IMG/VR virus record: IMGVR_UViG_3300018005_000202
Span: 1-27,044 of that record
Strand: one strand, 5' to 3'
Length of the DNA stretch: 27,044 nucleotides
From: a virus
Position numbers and translations under genes: made by a program
Notes under the pieces: model-generated
What the model saw: only the letters and a program-made list of their open reading frames with translations
Told to the model about the DNA's origin: nothing
Database searches by the model: none
Shown here: in pieces, positions 10,786 through 18,888 of the stretch
Numbering within the stretch: position 1 is the stretch's first letter
How the letters are laid out: every line of letters begins with the position of its first letter

Positions 10786-11811
10786 CTATGAATACACCAT
10801 CAGGATTTGGGTTACTGCCTGTGGCCGCGGCGTCCATCCCGACGTGATGCGCCATTCCTGCAGGAAATCCGTGGCGCCGCCAGCCAGCGGCGAGACGATC
10901 TCGCGTGGCGCCGCCATATCGCAATACTGCGTTACGCAGACCTTATTGCCGGGCGACATCGACGCGAAGATGTTGGTATTCACCGGCTTGTCGGTCGCTG
11001 GCTTCTCGACCTCCGGCATGACAAGGAGAACGACATCGGTGTCGGCATTGCCACCGGCGCCCTGCAGCGTATCGTCGTAGGCCCAGAGCAGCGTGTCGCC
11101 GTTGTCCATCAGAATCGATTTGAACGTCCCGGCGGTCGAGGTCGTGCCGGCGCCGATGCGCTGGAATTGCACGAGCTGAACCACGTTGTACTCGAAGAGG
11201 CCGAGCGTCCGCTGCGGGCCGAGGATGCAGAACAACCGACCCATACCGAGTTGGTAGGTCCGCTGCTTCAATGCGAGGACCTGCGATGCTACGAAGAACG
11301 CCATCTCGCCGTTGTCATAGGTCACGACAGTGTCGTTGCCGTTGGTGTCCGGCGGCAGCGGCACCGTGGTGGTACCCGGCGCATTGACGATGCCCTCGCC
11401 GATCTGAGGATTGAAGCCGAAGAGCGCAGCATCCCTGGCAAGCTGGAAGTGACCCTGCCGGCCGCCGAGGCGGTAGGCTTCCGGGACCGCGAAGCCCCAG
11501 CGACCGCCGGCCGCGACATCATGGTGGTTCCACTCTGCGCGAACTTGCAGCAAGTAAGTCGCGGTCGAGAACATCGTCGCCATGATGTCCACGCCGGGAA
11601 GTTCGTTGTAGGAAGCCTGCCCCGCCGCCATCTTGGTGCGGAGATTGAGCTGCTTCATGTAGACCACCAAATCATCCTCGGCGAGCCGGACGCGAAGCTG
11701 CTGGTCGGCCATGAGATCGAGGAAGCCACTGACTTGGCTGTATTGAAGTATAAGCTCGGGCTCGATGAACGAAGGGTTCACCGTGATATATGCGTCGGCT
11801 TGAATCCCCAC
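10786..11811 (-). CDS. Major capsid protein, DUF2184-like
   Basis: 341 aa, no signal peptide. The pattern fits DUF2184-type major capsid proteins: N-terminal segment VNPSFIEPELILQYSQ, a region with W-N-H-H-D-V-A-A-G-G-R-W-G-F, DAALFGFNPQIGEGIVNAPG near the middle, a Gly/Asp-rich beta region, and a C-terminal TSGWTPRPQAVTQILMVYS. The order DUF1073 portal, MuF, DUF2213 protease/scaffold, small beta protein, this protein, then a terminator, is the usual head module order. Start codon and AAGGAGG upstream agree. The product would form the icosahedral shell. The family assignment is by recognition, not by search. Confidence 0.78.
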   Translation of the reverse strand: MGIQADAYITVNPSFIEPELILQYSQVSGFLDLMADQQLRVRLAEDDLVVYMKQLNLRTKMAAGQASYNELPGVDIMATMFSTATYLLQVRAEWNHHDVAAGGRWGFAVPEAYRLGGRQGHFQLARDAALFGFNPQIGEGIVNAPGTTTVPLPPDTNGNDTVVTYDNGEMAFFVASQVLALKQRTYQLGMGRLFCILGPQRTLGLFEYNVVQLVQFQRIGAGTTSTAGTFKSILMDNGDTLLWAYDDTLQGAGGNADTDVVLLVMPEVEKPATDKPVNTNIFASMSPGNKVCVTQYCDMAAPREIVSPLAGGATDFLQEWRITSGWTPRPQAVTQILMVYS

Positions 11812-11826
11812 GGTTGATCCTCCTTC

Positions 11827-12785: not shown

Positions 12786-14729
12786 TCAATGCTGAGTGAC
12801 GTTTCGCTTGAAGAAGTTCGCGCCAGGCGCCTTCGCCGCGCGTCCGGTCTGCCCGGCGAATTGGCTCATCCAAGTCGAAGGCTGGCCGTAGAAGTCGCGA
12901 TAGGTGTGGCCGCCCTCGACCCGCTCGACCATGCGTAGTACGTCGACCCCGATGTTCGTGGGATCGCGCGCCGCGACGATGGAATCCTCGAGAATCTGTC
13001 CGGAAGCGACGTTGAATGCGGCATCGTCGGCGAAAGCGGCCGACTTAAGGTCAACGCCCTTCCACCGCGGGCTGAGGACTTGAAGATCAAGCGTGGTGCG
13101 GCGCCGGAACTGCTTCGAGGTCTCACCCGGGATCGGGCGCGGCGTCTGCTTGCCGAGCAACGGGTAGACGCGGTCGGCCTCGGTCCAGGCGTCGGCGAGC
13201 GCGGCGTGCTCGTCGTCGGCGAGCGGGCGCACGAGCTTGGAAAGTTCGTCGAGTTGGCGTTTGACGTCGGCGCTATCGGCCATCGCGGCATCCTTCTTCG
13301 CCTTGTCGGCCTTTTCCTTTTCCTCTTTTTCCTTGTCCTCGGCGTCCTTCTTGGCCTTATCGGCGGCGAGCTTCTCGGCCTCGCCCTTGTCCTTGTCTTC
13401 GGCGTCTTTCTTCGCCGCGTCGTCCTTGCGGCGGGCGTCGTCGCGAGCCTTGTCCTTCTCCTCCATCGAATCCATGCGGCGGCCGAGGTGCGAGACGGCG
13501 TCCGCCATCTTGCCGAGATAGCCCGAGATTTCGGAGAGCTTGTCGTCGAGGTTCTTGCCAGCGTCGGCATCTTTGCGCGCGGCGTCGTCTTTGGCTTTGT
13601 CGTCGCGCGCTTTATCGTCTCGCTTCGCGGCGTCGTCGGCGGCCTTCTTCGCGGCAGCTTCCTCTTCAGGGGTCATCGCTGAGTCCTCTCTCGATTCGGA
13701 TCGAACGCCACTAATCTCGTCACCTTTATCCCAAACGCCGCGCGAACACAACGCGACGTGATCCAAAAGGCTAGGATCGCCCTCGACCAGCAGCTTCGCT
13801 CCGTTCTCCAGGGTGAGCTTCTGGTTGACGCTGAGATCGTGGAAGTAGACCGCCGGCGATGTCGATAGCTGGCCATCTTCAAGTTCTCGGCCAGCCTCTT
13901 CGTCGTAGACCTTGGCGATTCCCCAGACCTCGTCGCCCTTTTCGCCGCCAATGTACGGCAGAAAGATGCTCCCCACAACTCTTTCGGCGAACTCGTCGGA
14001 GTCCAGGAGCTGCCCCTTGGGATGCTTGTAGATTACCGTGAGACCGTTACAGCGCGCCAAGGCTTCGTCGTTCAGCCATATCTTCGGATCGCGGAAGACG
14101 AACTCCTTTAGCTTCGGCCGATAGGCGTATCCGGTCCCAGTGATTCGGATCGCCACCAGCCACATGTTCTCGTAACGCTGCGGAGACGTCAGCCGATTCG
14201 CGGCGATGGCGCGCGCGATGCCGAGCTCGTTCATGGTGAGTCGTTCGAGCGCGATCGAGCAGCCTGGATGAAGCGGCGCCGGCGGCGAGGCGACCGGGAC
14301 CCATGCCCAGCCATCGTGTTCGTCGTTCAGTTCCGGCGTGAACTCATTCGTCACTTTTTGCAAAAACGTGGAATAGTCCACGCCCGGCGCCCCCATCGGA
14401 CCAGCCGCGATCGCGCTTGCGGGGGGAGCCGGTGCCGGAGCAGCGGGCGGCGTAACAGGGACCGCCGCGGTCGCCGATCCGGCACCACCGTTGAGGTCGG
14501 CAACGGGCGCCCCTTTCTGCCGGGTCAGGAGCGACCGCACCCCCTCCGGCAGGAAACCAATCTCTTCGCGGGTTTCTCGGATCGCGGTCTGTTCGGTCGA
14601 TTCGTCACCATCTTGCCCGCCGCCGGGCAGATCCCAGTATCCGGCGAAATCTTGCGAGGCCGCGCTGCGGCGGAGAAAGAGCGCCGTTCCGTTCAACGAC
14701 AAAAAAAGTATGCCAGCGCCGCGGATCAC
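12786..14729 (-). CDS. Nudix hydrolase - DUF2213 protease - scaffold fusion
   Basis: 647 aa with three regions. (1) Residues about 1-165: a Nudix domain with box G-x5-E-x7-R-E-x2-E-E-x-G at residues 37-59; E52, E55 and E56 are present. An Ala/Pro-rich insert (about 75-125) interrupts it. (2) Residues about 175-350: a DUF2213-like domain (RYENMWLVAIRITGTGYAYR, WLNDEALARCNGLTVIYKHP, GQLSTSPAVYF), the family seen in prohead protease/scaffold genes. (3) Residues about 360-510: a long Lys/Asp/Glu/Ala coiled coil, then a folded C-terminal region. It probably acts as scaffold and maturation protease for the head; a substrate for the Nudix part is unknown. Its ATG overlaps the preceding stop by ATGA. 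Confidence 0.78.
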   Translation of the reverse strand: MIRGAGILFLSLNGTALFLRRSAASQDFAGYWDLPGGGQDGDESTEQTAIRETREEIGFLPEGVRSLLTRQKGAPVADLNGGAGSATAAVPVTPPAAPAPAPPASAIAAGPMGAPGVDYSTFLQKVTNEFTPELNDEHDGWAWVPVASPPAPLHPGCSIALERLTMNELGIARAIAANRLTSPQRYENMWLVAIRITGTGYAYRPKLKEFVFRDPKIWLNDEALARCNGLTVIYKHPKGQLLDSDEFAERVVGSIFLPYIGGEKGDEVWGIAKVYDEEAGRELEDGQLSTSPAVYFHDLSVNQKLTLENGAKLLVEGDPSLLDHVALCSRGVWDKGDEISGVRSESREDSAMTPEEEAAAKKAADDAAKRDDKARDDKAKDDAARKDADAGKNLDDKLSEISGYLGKMADAVSHLGRRMDSMEEKDKARDDARRKDDAAKKDAEDKDKGEAEKLAADKAKKDAEDKEKEEKEKADKAKKDAAMADSADVKRQLDELSKLVRPLADDEHAALADAWTEADRVYPLLGKQTPRPIPGETSKQFRRRTTLDLQVLSPRWKGVDLKSAAFADDAAFNVASGQILEDSIVAARDPTNIGVDVLRMVERVEGGHTYRDFYGQPSTWMSQFAGQTGRAAKAPGANFFKRNVTQH

Positions 14730-16731: not shown

Positions 16732-18888
16732 CTATCCTATGGCTTCGAGACGCCGCATCAGTCGTCGTCGCTCCGCTTCGATCCCGACCGCTGGCCGAAT
16801 CGTCATCCGCTCCTCCCAGAATTGCGCCAGTTCGGCCGGGAGCGGCAGCTTCAGCATGAATCGCGCATAGCTTTCCGCGAAGACTTCCGAAGCGACGCTA
16901 TCGACCTTACCGCGGCGGCGGAGATCATCGAGATGTATCCGGTTCGCCATCTCGAGGAACGAACCGATCTTGTTCAGGTGCCGACGCTTGAACTCGGCGT
17001 AGGTCCCAGGGTCGATCTCCTGCCCGCGGTGGCCGGCCTCATGAAGGAGGATTTGGACGCGGTCCATCGCCGGGAGTTGATCGAATTTCCGCTGGATTTC
17101 GACGCTGTCATCGTCCGATTCGTAGGAAGCGTGCCAAGCGTCGCGATCATCCACGAAGCGAACATCGGTCACCCCGACGAAATATCCGAGCGCGTCGCGC
17201 CGCAGCGCCTTGCGGAAGATCTCTGAGTGGACGAGGTCGAGCCCGCTCGCCGCATCATCCGCCCGGGCCGCAGAGACTATGCGCGCATTCGCGAGCCACG
17301 CCTTGCCCTTCGCCGTGAGCATGTCGTCTGGCAAATCCCGGAGCGCGTATAAAAATCTGTAGGAACAACGGCAATTATGGACGATAATGCCATCGGCAAC
17401 AAACCAGCCTGATTCGGTTTGGAGATTATAGACATGCCCAGACCATTGCCGCCGTTCGATCTTGATGATGCGCGTCGCTCGTACCTCGAAGGGGAAAGTC
17501 TCTTGAGTTTGTCCAAACGATTGTGTGTTTCGCGCGGTGCGCTTGCCCACCATCTCAATATTCCTCTGCGGAATGGCTCCGAAGCAAACTTGATCCGTAT
17601 GGCCCGCGAAGGCGAAGATGGTCGGCGCAAATTGGTTGAGGCAGCACATAAAGCGCGCACCGGCGCTAAAGCTAGTTTGGAGGAAAAACTTAACCGCGCC
17701 CGCCGCCGTTCGACAGAGGTCGGCTACGGAGAACGAGAAGTGATGCAAGCCCTGCAGGCGCATGGGATTAAAACCGAATCTCAATGGCCATGCGGTCCCT
17801 ACAACATCGACATCGCTTGCGGTTCCATCGCCGTGGAATTGCTTACACGAGCCTCCAATCCTCTCAATGACCCCGAATTTATTGAGCGTAGCAAATATCT
17901 CTGCAATGCAGGTTACTGTCTTATTTTGGTTCGTTTCCGAGTTGACCGAACGGACGATGTTATCGCTAATCTCGATCATATCGTCGCCTTCATTGAGCGC
18001 GCCAATCTGGACCCATCCATGAGAAGTAAGAATTGGGTGATTAGGTGTAGCTCGGAGCGTTTTGCCAGAGGCCGTAATGATCGTGGTCAAGTCACCGCTG
18101 TACCAACGCCGATACGCTTTTTCCACATTATCAGCGAATGGTATCTGTGAGTCGCCAGGGAAGCAGAAGGGAAGTTGCGCCGGTGCTTCGATTTCGTCGA
18201 CGAAAGGTCGACTATTCTTCTTGACCAAACCGGCACGATGCGCCCACGAATCGCGGACAAGATAGATTTGCTCGTCGCGCGCTTTATGCTCAGGCCTCGC
18301 GTCATAGCCTGCCTGACGCCACATACTTCGCCACATTCCCGCTATCGCTCCCCCGTCCGTGGCAACGAGATCGTTGATTGAGGCGATGAGTTTAGCCGAT
18401 TGATCGATCACAACGCGGCGTTCTTCATACGGCAGCGAGGCAAGCGCCTTCTTAACGTTTTGCTTGACCTCGCGCCTTCCCTCTGCCGAAACCCCGCCGG
18501 GCGGAATCGACGTCGACCAACCCTGGAATCGCCGCAGCGTCTTCTCGATCGATTCGGCCCGGTTGAGCTTGATGAGATCGGACGAGGCGACGATCCGCCG
18601 GTCGAGTTCGGCACGGAGTTGAGGTCGCACCTTCTCCAGCGTGAACCGCTCGACGCCTTGGTGATATTTTGCGATCCCGCCGCGCTCGACGAGACGCCGG
18701 TAGATCGTCGCCAATCCTTCCCGGAGCTGCTGCTCCAGCGCCACCGCCGAGATCATCGAGGCCTCGGCCGCGATCCGGAGTTCGCGCGTCCACTTCGCGA
18801 TTCGTTCCCCCGAATCAAAGCCATGCTGCAAAATGTCCTCGACCGCAGCGTCAAGGACTTCCTGAAAGGTCTTCAGGCGGGCGGTCAT
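16732..18888 (-). CDS. MuF-like head morphogenesis protein with intein and C-terminal HExxH domain
   Basis: 718 aa precursor. N-extein (1-241): helical MuF-type minor head protein, with RPEHKARDEQIYLVRDSW before the intein. Intein: residues 242-505. C-extein (506-718): C-R-C-S-Y-R-F, the conserved end of the MuF domain, then a C-terminal region with HEAGH at 616-620 and a downstream EVFAESYARF (E668, E672) that could give the third zinc ligand, so a possible metallopeptidase. Splicing would give about 454 aa. MuF proteins are minor capsid components near the portal, and here it follows the portal gene. Its ATG overlaps the stop of the 78-aa gene by ATGA. The peptidase reading is inference. 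Confidence 0.85.
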   Translation of the reverse strand: MTARLKTFQEVLDAAVEDILQHGFDSGERIAKWTRELRIAAEASMISAVALEQQLREGLATIYRRLVERGGIAKYHQGVERFTLEKVRPQLRAELDRRIVASSDLIKLNRAESIEKTLRRFQGWSTSIPPGGVSAEGRREVKQNVKKALASLPYEERRVVIDQSAKLIASINDLVATDGGAIAGMWRSMWRQAGYDARPEHKARDEQIYLVRDSWAHRAGLVKKNSRPFVDEIEAPAQLPFCFPGDSQIPFADNVEKAYRRWYSGDLTTIITASGKTLRATPNHPILTSHGWVQIGALNEGDDMIEISDNIVRSVNSETNQNKTVTCIAEIFATLNKFGVIERIGGSCKQFHGDGTASDVDVVGTAWPLRFGFNPMRLQGLHHFSFSVADLCRTAAGAVKFFLQTSFSAGARFMCCLNQFAPTIFAFAGHTDQVCFGAIPQRNIEMVGKRTARNTQSFGQTQETFPFEVRATRIIKIERRQWSGHVYNLQTESGWFVADGIIVHNCRCSYRFLYALRDLPDDMLTAKGKAWLANARIVSAARADDAASGLDLVHSEIFRKALRRDALGYFVGVTDVRFVDDRDAWHASYESDDDSVEIQRKFDQLPAMDRVQILLHEAGHRGQEIDPGTYAEFKRRHLNKIGSFLEMANRIHLDDLRRRGKVDSVASEVFAESYARFMLKLPLPAELAQFWEERMTIRPAVGIEAERRRLMRRLEAIG
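17421..17424 (+). promoter_or_regulatory. Shine-Dalgarno for antisense nuclease
   Basis: GGAG lies 9 bases before ATG 17434-17436 on the plus strand. The TTG at 17419 would also open the frame but lacks such a site. This decides the start. It is also part of the intein coding sequence on the other strand. Confidence 0.5.
17434..18150 (+). CDS. Putative homing endonuclease (Vsr/DUF559-like) nested antisense in the intein
   Basis: 238 aa, the only convincing plus-strand gene. Residues about 10-35 form a helix-turn-helix (YLEGESLLSLSKRLCVSRGA). Residues about 45-90 are basic (MAREGEDGRRKLVEAAHKAR). Residues about 97-170 form a Vsr/DUF559-like nuclease core: GYGEREVMQALQAHGI, then GPYNIDIACGSIAVEL (D and E of a PD-(D/E)xK-type site), then CNAGYCLILVRF. 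Homologue-like features continue to NWVIRCSSERFARG. GGAG supports the ATG, and TGA at 18148-18150 lies opposite intein Ser6. It starts 60 bases inside one intein end and stops 15 inside the other. I infer it cuts intein-less MuF alleles. The typical Lys of ExK is not obvious. Confidence 0.75.
   Translation: MPRPLPPFDLDDARRSYLEGESLLSLSKRLCVSRGALAHHLNIPLRNGSEANLIRMAREGEDGRRKLVEAAHKARTGAKASLEEKLNRARRRSTEVGYGEREVMQALQAHGIKTESQWPCGPYNIDIACGSIAVELLTRASNPLNDPEFIERSKYLCNAGYCLILVRFRVDRTDDVIANLDHIVAFIERANLDPSMRSKNWVIRCSSERFARGRNDRGQVTAVPTPIRFFHIISEWYL

Follow-up and report, generated by a model that had tools for sequence, protein, structure and literature searches.

The window, i.e., the whole stretch of 27,044 nucleotides of viral DNA analysed here, carries on its minus strand a MuF-type head morphogenesis gene with an in-frame intein, and on the plus strand, opposite the intein, a second long reading frame with the characters of a nuclease (Table 1). 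The minus-strand frame is similar to phrog_324 (head morphogenesis, E 2.2e-12) and to phrog_15127 (head protein, E 2.4e-50), and the intein enters it as F/CFPGDS...IIVHN/CRC. The hallmarks expected of an intein, namely Cys1, the TxxH of block B, the C-terminal Asn and Cys+1, are all present in this in-frame insertion. Among 48 relatives, C1, T40, N42, H43, T47 and N264 are invariant, and the C-terminal junction is HN/C; intein Leu128 is likewise invariant in 48 relatives. In the AlphaFold model, the Hint parts have pLDDT values above 90 and find their best PDB match in the Mtu RecA intein, while residues 128-221 are mostly below 50 and are predicted to be disordered. The C-terminal extein (16732-17373) contains a LLHEAGHRG run that resembles a zinc-peptidase motif, without a Pfam match.

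Table 1. Features of the intein and of the opposite reading frame, in window coordinates unless a record is named
Feature	Position	Strand	Remarks
MuF-type head morphogenesis gene with intein	16732..18888	-	single open frame, 718 residues (translation)
Intein, 264 residues, CFPGDS...IIVHN, then Cys+1	17374..18165	-	Pfam Intein_splicing E 2.9e-11
Intein block A, CFPGDS	18148..18165	-	contains the nuclease stop codon
Intein block B, TPNHPILT, residues 40-47	18025..18048	-	complement of nuclease SKNWVIRC (198-205)
Intein FHGD, residues 110-113	17827..17838	-	complement of nuclease IAVE (132-135)
Intein block F, GHVYNLQT, residues 243-250	17416..17439	-	His CAT faces the nuclease ATG codon on the other strand
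Possible -10 box, GATAAT	17383..17388	+	complement of intein ...GII-HN; TATAAT in several relatives
Shine-Dalgarno GGAG of the nuclease	17421..17424	+	complement of block-F Leu-Gln codons
Antisense nuclease of putative homing type, 238 residues	17434..18150	+	ATG 17434, TGA 18148-18150
Nuclease N-terminal helix-turn-helix, residues 9-41	17458..17556	+	family HTH matches; three helices in model
Nuclease PD-(D/E)XK/Vsr-like core, residues 97-191	17722..18006	+	profile match to 3hrl, E 2.7e-6
Nuclease C-terminal tail, residues 192-238	18007..18147	+	opposite intein residues 7-53
Segment flagged by the sequence-only reading	17782..17844	both	nuclease catalytic motif opposite intein FHGD...VDVV
Gordonia phage MuF inteins with in-register antisense LAGLIDADG (I-MsoI-like) ORF	L252 2435-3259; L253 2381-3205		

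The plus-strand frame faces the intein codon-on-codon, nuclease residue k lying opposite intein residue 245-k, and the overlap spans residues 7-244 of the 264-residue intein; block B and the beginning of block F lie within it. The segment in which the sequence-only reading had noticed the overlap, at the catalytic core (QWPCGPYNIDIACGSIAVELL on the plus strand and KQFHGDGTASDVDVVGTAWPL on the minus strand), is one part of this near-whole-intein overlap. The nuclease was modelled by AlphaFold with a pLDDT of 94.0 and a pTM of 0.77, and the fold matches 1vsr (Vsr, Z 11.2), 1cw0 (Z 10.8) and 3r3p (I-Bth0305I, Z 10.4). Among 76 members of its family, HTH_7 is found in 39, HTH_23 in 35 and Pfam REase MTES_1575 in 49; Y123, N124, D126 and E135 are invariant in these sequences and E100 is nearly so. 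By modelled fold and by family, the plus-strand product is predicted to be a helix-turn-helix protein with a Vsr/I-Bth0305I-type nuclease domain.

Register and constraint on the two strands

When two genes overlap codon-on-codon in antisense, the codons TTA, CTA and TCA of one frame are stops in the other. The exact codon-by-codon complementarity claimed from the sequence alone is borne out, with the codons of both frames starting at positions equal to 1 mod 3 and GPYNIDIACGSIAVEL facing QFHGDGTASDVDVVGT. The accompanying claim that the three codons are banned holds as well, none occurring in the window nuclease, where base composition predicts 8.4 (log10 P = -4.1). The two remaining antisense registers of the same sequence contain 16-17 and 6 stops. 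In 102 nuclease families, each represented by one member per 70% identity cluster, there is not a single TTA, CTA or TCA against about 832 expected from composition. A count inside and outside inteins had also been proposed, and the free-standing copy in Acinetobacter phage IME285, compared with this zero, has 12 such codons (12.3 expected). On the intein side, none of the 4786 Leu/Ser codons is a forbidden one, versus 373 of 2962 in the exteins of the same genes.

The arrangement is widespread. The window nuclease matches 124 GenBank phage records by tblastn, plus many viral contigs, and in 14 of the 15 records first examined (from phages of Klebsiella, Haemophilus, Edwardsiella, Vibrio, Pseudomonas, Gordonia, Cronobacter, Salmonella and Acinetobacter) the nuclease is antisense, in the same register and stop-free; in these 14 the annotated gene is a head protein or hypothetical only, and the exception is IME285. 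A 20-member nuclease alignment offered no conserved stretch for profile scans, and subfamily alignments were used instead; the first scan of genome contigs gave no matches and the second gave three loci. With a profile over all loci, 133 of 134 distinct nuclease ORFs have zero stops in the in-register antisense frame. All 80 inteins found by their N-terminal splicing domain alone have the nuclease opposite, in register. The in-register openness of the pair is more than chance.

In the overlap, relatives differ by 0.30, 0.16 and 0.39 per codon at nuclease positions 1, 2 and 3, respectively, and the exteins by 0.34, 0.27 and 0.56 at positions 1, 2 and 3; the middle base, shared by both frames, is thus unusually constrained (0.16 versus 0.27). 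Dividing position-3 by position-1 differences gives about 0.5 for splicing sequence that the nuclease does not cover, 0.6-1.0 for blocks A and B opposite the nuclease C-terminus, and 1.3-1.9 in the nuclease middle, i.e., the overlap evolves intein-like at its ends and nuclease-like in its centre. Opposite block B, nuclease V202, I203 and R204 are the commonest residues in 76-84% of the nucleases. As read from aligned relatives, these substitution patterns show selection on both products.

The start signals of the nuclease are also spelled by splicing codons, those of block F. The block-F His codon is CAT in 70 of 79 cases, versus 82 of 241 in the exteins (p 3e-18), and the block-F Leu codon is CTC in 75 of 90, versus 408 of 1670 (p 7e-30), with a Shine-Dalgarno-like site in 82 of 94 families. 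Further upstream, the hexamer seen most often opposite the intein C-terminal Ile-Ile is TATAAT (14 of 96), and the rare codon ATA is used for Ile there in 25 of 48 cases, versus 182 of 1013 in the exteins; a -10-like promoter box for the nuclease is, on this sequence pattern, suggestive only.

According to the sequence-only reading, if the FHGD-type run recurs in phage inteins, its conservation there may be explained by the antisense nuclease rather than by the intein. The recurrence stands, since FHGD is found in 71 and LHGD in 15 of 100 families with the antisense nuclease, and across relatives FHGD is the complement of the nuclease (V/I)AVE as VDVV is that of YNID. The explanation stands in part: FHGD was found only together with the nuclease, and it is absent from three inteins that lack a Vsr-like nuclease (L252 and L253 of Gordonia phages, and L254 of Xanthomonas phage FoX3), but the codons facing H-G-D are fixed beyond what the nuclease needs. 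In the V-A-V-E of the nuclease, Ala is GCC in 95 of 97 cases (background 1179/2688, 44%), the following Val is GTG in 88 of 92 (background 346/1757, 20%), and the preceding Val/Ile codon ends in C in 95 of 97 (background about 50%). This bias persists in AT-rich phages, and the third bases at the nuclease Y, N, D and E vary, unlike those of the three codons facing H-G-D. The latter bases, which are free as far as the nuclease is concerned, begin the H, G and D codons of the intein; as they are nearly invariant, H-G-D is selected in the intein too. The earlier proposal had named free-standing homologues with no conserved complement as evidence against itself, and the IME285 relative is of this kind, for it keeps the motif as VALE, written GTG GCG CTG GAA, alongside its 12 forbidden codons. 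Both strands are thus under selection at the catalytic site, and the view that the nuclease alone explains FHGD is not supported; a clearer case of an intein residue dictated by the nuclease is the block-F histidine, the complement of its ATG.

A DNA-level cause of the invariance of GCCGTGGA, for instance a recognition site or an operator, was not retained, as the intein-synonymous GAC/GAT varies (65:30) and the amino-acid-changing bases do not.

A competing reading is that only the nuclease is selected and the opposite frame is merely kept open, in which case FHGD and all other parts of the intein except its splicing blocks would have no function of their own. This is unlikely. The predicted disorder of the intein centre and the lack of FHGD in the three inteins without the Vsr-like nuclease would suit it, but the near-invariance of those H-G-D codon positions that the nuclease leaves free, and a free-standing nuclease that does without them, argue against it.

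Empty sites, copies at other sites, and probable homing

In Salmonella phage SGPC, the element is a precise 816-bp insertion between HPN and CRS of MuF; Salmonella phage FSL SP-101 has this gene in one piece, and the flanks of the two phages are identical at 193 of 200 and 175 of 200 positions. The joined exteins match 1480 phage records, many of them unbroken. Such precise empty sites in near-identical phages indicate, from genome comparison, a mobile element. Other copies sit elsewhere: at a different MuF site in phage KMB36, in the terminase of one contig (L158), and in Virus Rctr197k (L257, 2165-3517), where the element splits a dCMP deaminase-like gene (Pfam E 2.9e-10) annotated as head morphogenesis. 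In one locus (L012, 2218-3003), the nuclease is broken by a nonsense codon after VAVELM and the intein frame is still open, which argues that splicing does not depend on the nuclease, in line with what a homing element would show.

In all, the element is very probably a mobile intein with its homing endonuclease gene on the complementary strand, codon-on-codon across nearly the whole intein. The minus strand would be translated within the MuF head protein, from which the Hint domain (residues 1-70 and 226-264) would splice the intein out, and the sequence of the central intein linker would simply follow from the nuclease gene on the other strand. On the plus strand, a Shine-Dalgarno and an ATG of its own would start the separate translation of the HTH and Vsr-like (PD-(D/E)XK) nuclease, and this in turn would cut intein-free MuF genes near the insertion site, upon which repair would copy the element in. 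Splicing, nuclease expression, cutting and homing are thus predicted activities.

That the nuclease serves the phage in some other way, for instance by competitor exclusion or by HTH regulation, is very unlikely. It does resemble phage nucleases that stand alone, and Acinetobacter phages have one such copy next to an intact MuF gene; however, an element that occurs sporadically, at exact sites for which nearly identical empty alleles exist, is what homing predicts, the enzyme is related to the homing endonuclease I-Bth0305I, and the cutting of intein-free competitors is itself compatible with homing. As to the notion that the intein alone is selected and the plus-strand ORF is a ghost produced by its codons, in-register antisense ORFs are common in GC-rich genes and nearly all records annotate the MuF strand only, but this is refuted: the ORF matches HTH and nuclease families independently, is modelled with high confidence as a Vsr-like nuclease, stays open in phages of 38-45% GC where 9-14 forbidden codons are expected each, and evolves fastest at its own third positions in the nuclease middle.

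The Acinetobacter copies (L034, 455-1345; L259, 2501-3391) bear on the history of the mobile intein, as they lie beside an intact, intein-less MuF gene (CKCRA), and the first of them groups, on a long branch, within a clade of 24 rows whose other members are all intein-borne (99% SH-aLRT). This free-standing nuclease is likely, from its place in the tree, to be an escape from an intein, and its retained C-terminal tail agrees with this. A search for further free-standing copies returned near-identical Acinetobacter phages only. For the element itself, we infer that the loop of the intein received an HTH-Vsr gene in antisense orientation and that the end of this gene was overprinted on the splicing domain, because the sequence homology of the nuclease to 3hrl ends near residue 191 and the tail, which lies beyond the sequence match of known nucleases, faces intein residues 7-53. 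Against an overprinted tail, the structural alignment to Vsr extends to residue 237.

A second case and known systems

Gordonia phages Barsten and Nordenberg carry a different intein, without FHGD, at the same MuF site. Its antisense ORF of 195 codons is in register and contains no forbidden codons; it matches I-MsoI, a LAGLIDADG enzyme (E 5e-4), and phrog_5046 endonucleases (E 1e-15), and also resembles annotated phage endonucleases. The two phages differ in this ORF at 10, 5 and 44 codon positions 1, 2 and 3, respectively. An unrelated antisense nuclease of LAGLIDADG type suggests that the arrangement arose twice; a scan of viral sequences for more antisense LAGLIDADG cases yielded partial matches only.

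Canonical mobile inteins, such as PI-PfuI and the TliVMA intein, likewise have a Hint domain interrupted by a homing region at a conserved residue of an essential gene, but their endonuclease forms one domain of the intein polypeptide, whereas the present element encodes it on the complementary strand, as a protein in its own right, and has dual-coded splicing blocks. The I-Bth0305I and Vsr-like (EDxHD) homing endonucleases share the nuclease fold (Z 10.4-11.2); by comparison, the present enzyme has HTH repeats at its N-terminus, about 47 C-terminal residues beyond the 3hrl sequence match, and a gene lying antisense in an intein.

To our knowledge, long antisense gene pairs in which both products belong to recognisable conserved families are very rare and disputed. 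Here, more than 100 diverged families keep one such pair, a free-standing escapee serves as a control, and the whole provides a natural data set for measuring dual-strand constraint. It also shows a way for an intein to carry a homing gene without added length, lets a start codon on the other strand explain an intein residue (the block-F histidine), and reveals a whole nuclease family hidden by gene callers. No earlier description of an antisense intein-nuclease arrangement was found in the literature searched, although the preprint of Gosselin et al. (2025) may overlap with the present finding; this work by Gosselin, Arsenault and Gogarten reportedly deals with actinobacteriophage inteins of non-canonical architecture, and may cover inteins with other-frame nucleases, possibly those of Gordonia phages. 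The pair probably represents an undescribed class of selfish element, widespread in tailed phages and formed at least two times (Vsr-like and LAGLIDADG), in which intein and homing nuclease share codons on opposite strands, and splicing blocks and start signals are mutual complements.

The nearest description found is that of the ShiLan hidden HNH (PMC11855218), likewise a homing-type endonuclease in another frame of an insertion that is open in the host frame, which lies in a third frame relative to the host gene and has no splicing domain.

A further overlapping intein-nuclease layout is seen in Xanthomonas phage FoX3 (L254, 2330-3271), where the intein of a helicase-type gene annotated as head morphogenesis also encodes, on the same strand but in a different frame, a LAGLIDADG_2 endonuclease (Pfam E 1e-21). 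Within the window, a 336-aa ORF (10807-11817, plus strand) lies in register opposite 10786-11811, which has a weak match to the major head protein family phrog_6671, and is probably a GC-rich ghost. A large phage protein (phrog_6216) encoded at 12786-14729 has a NUDIX domain (Pfam E 1e-14) fused to its N-terminus.
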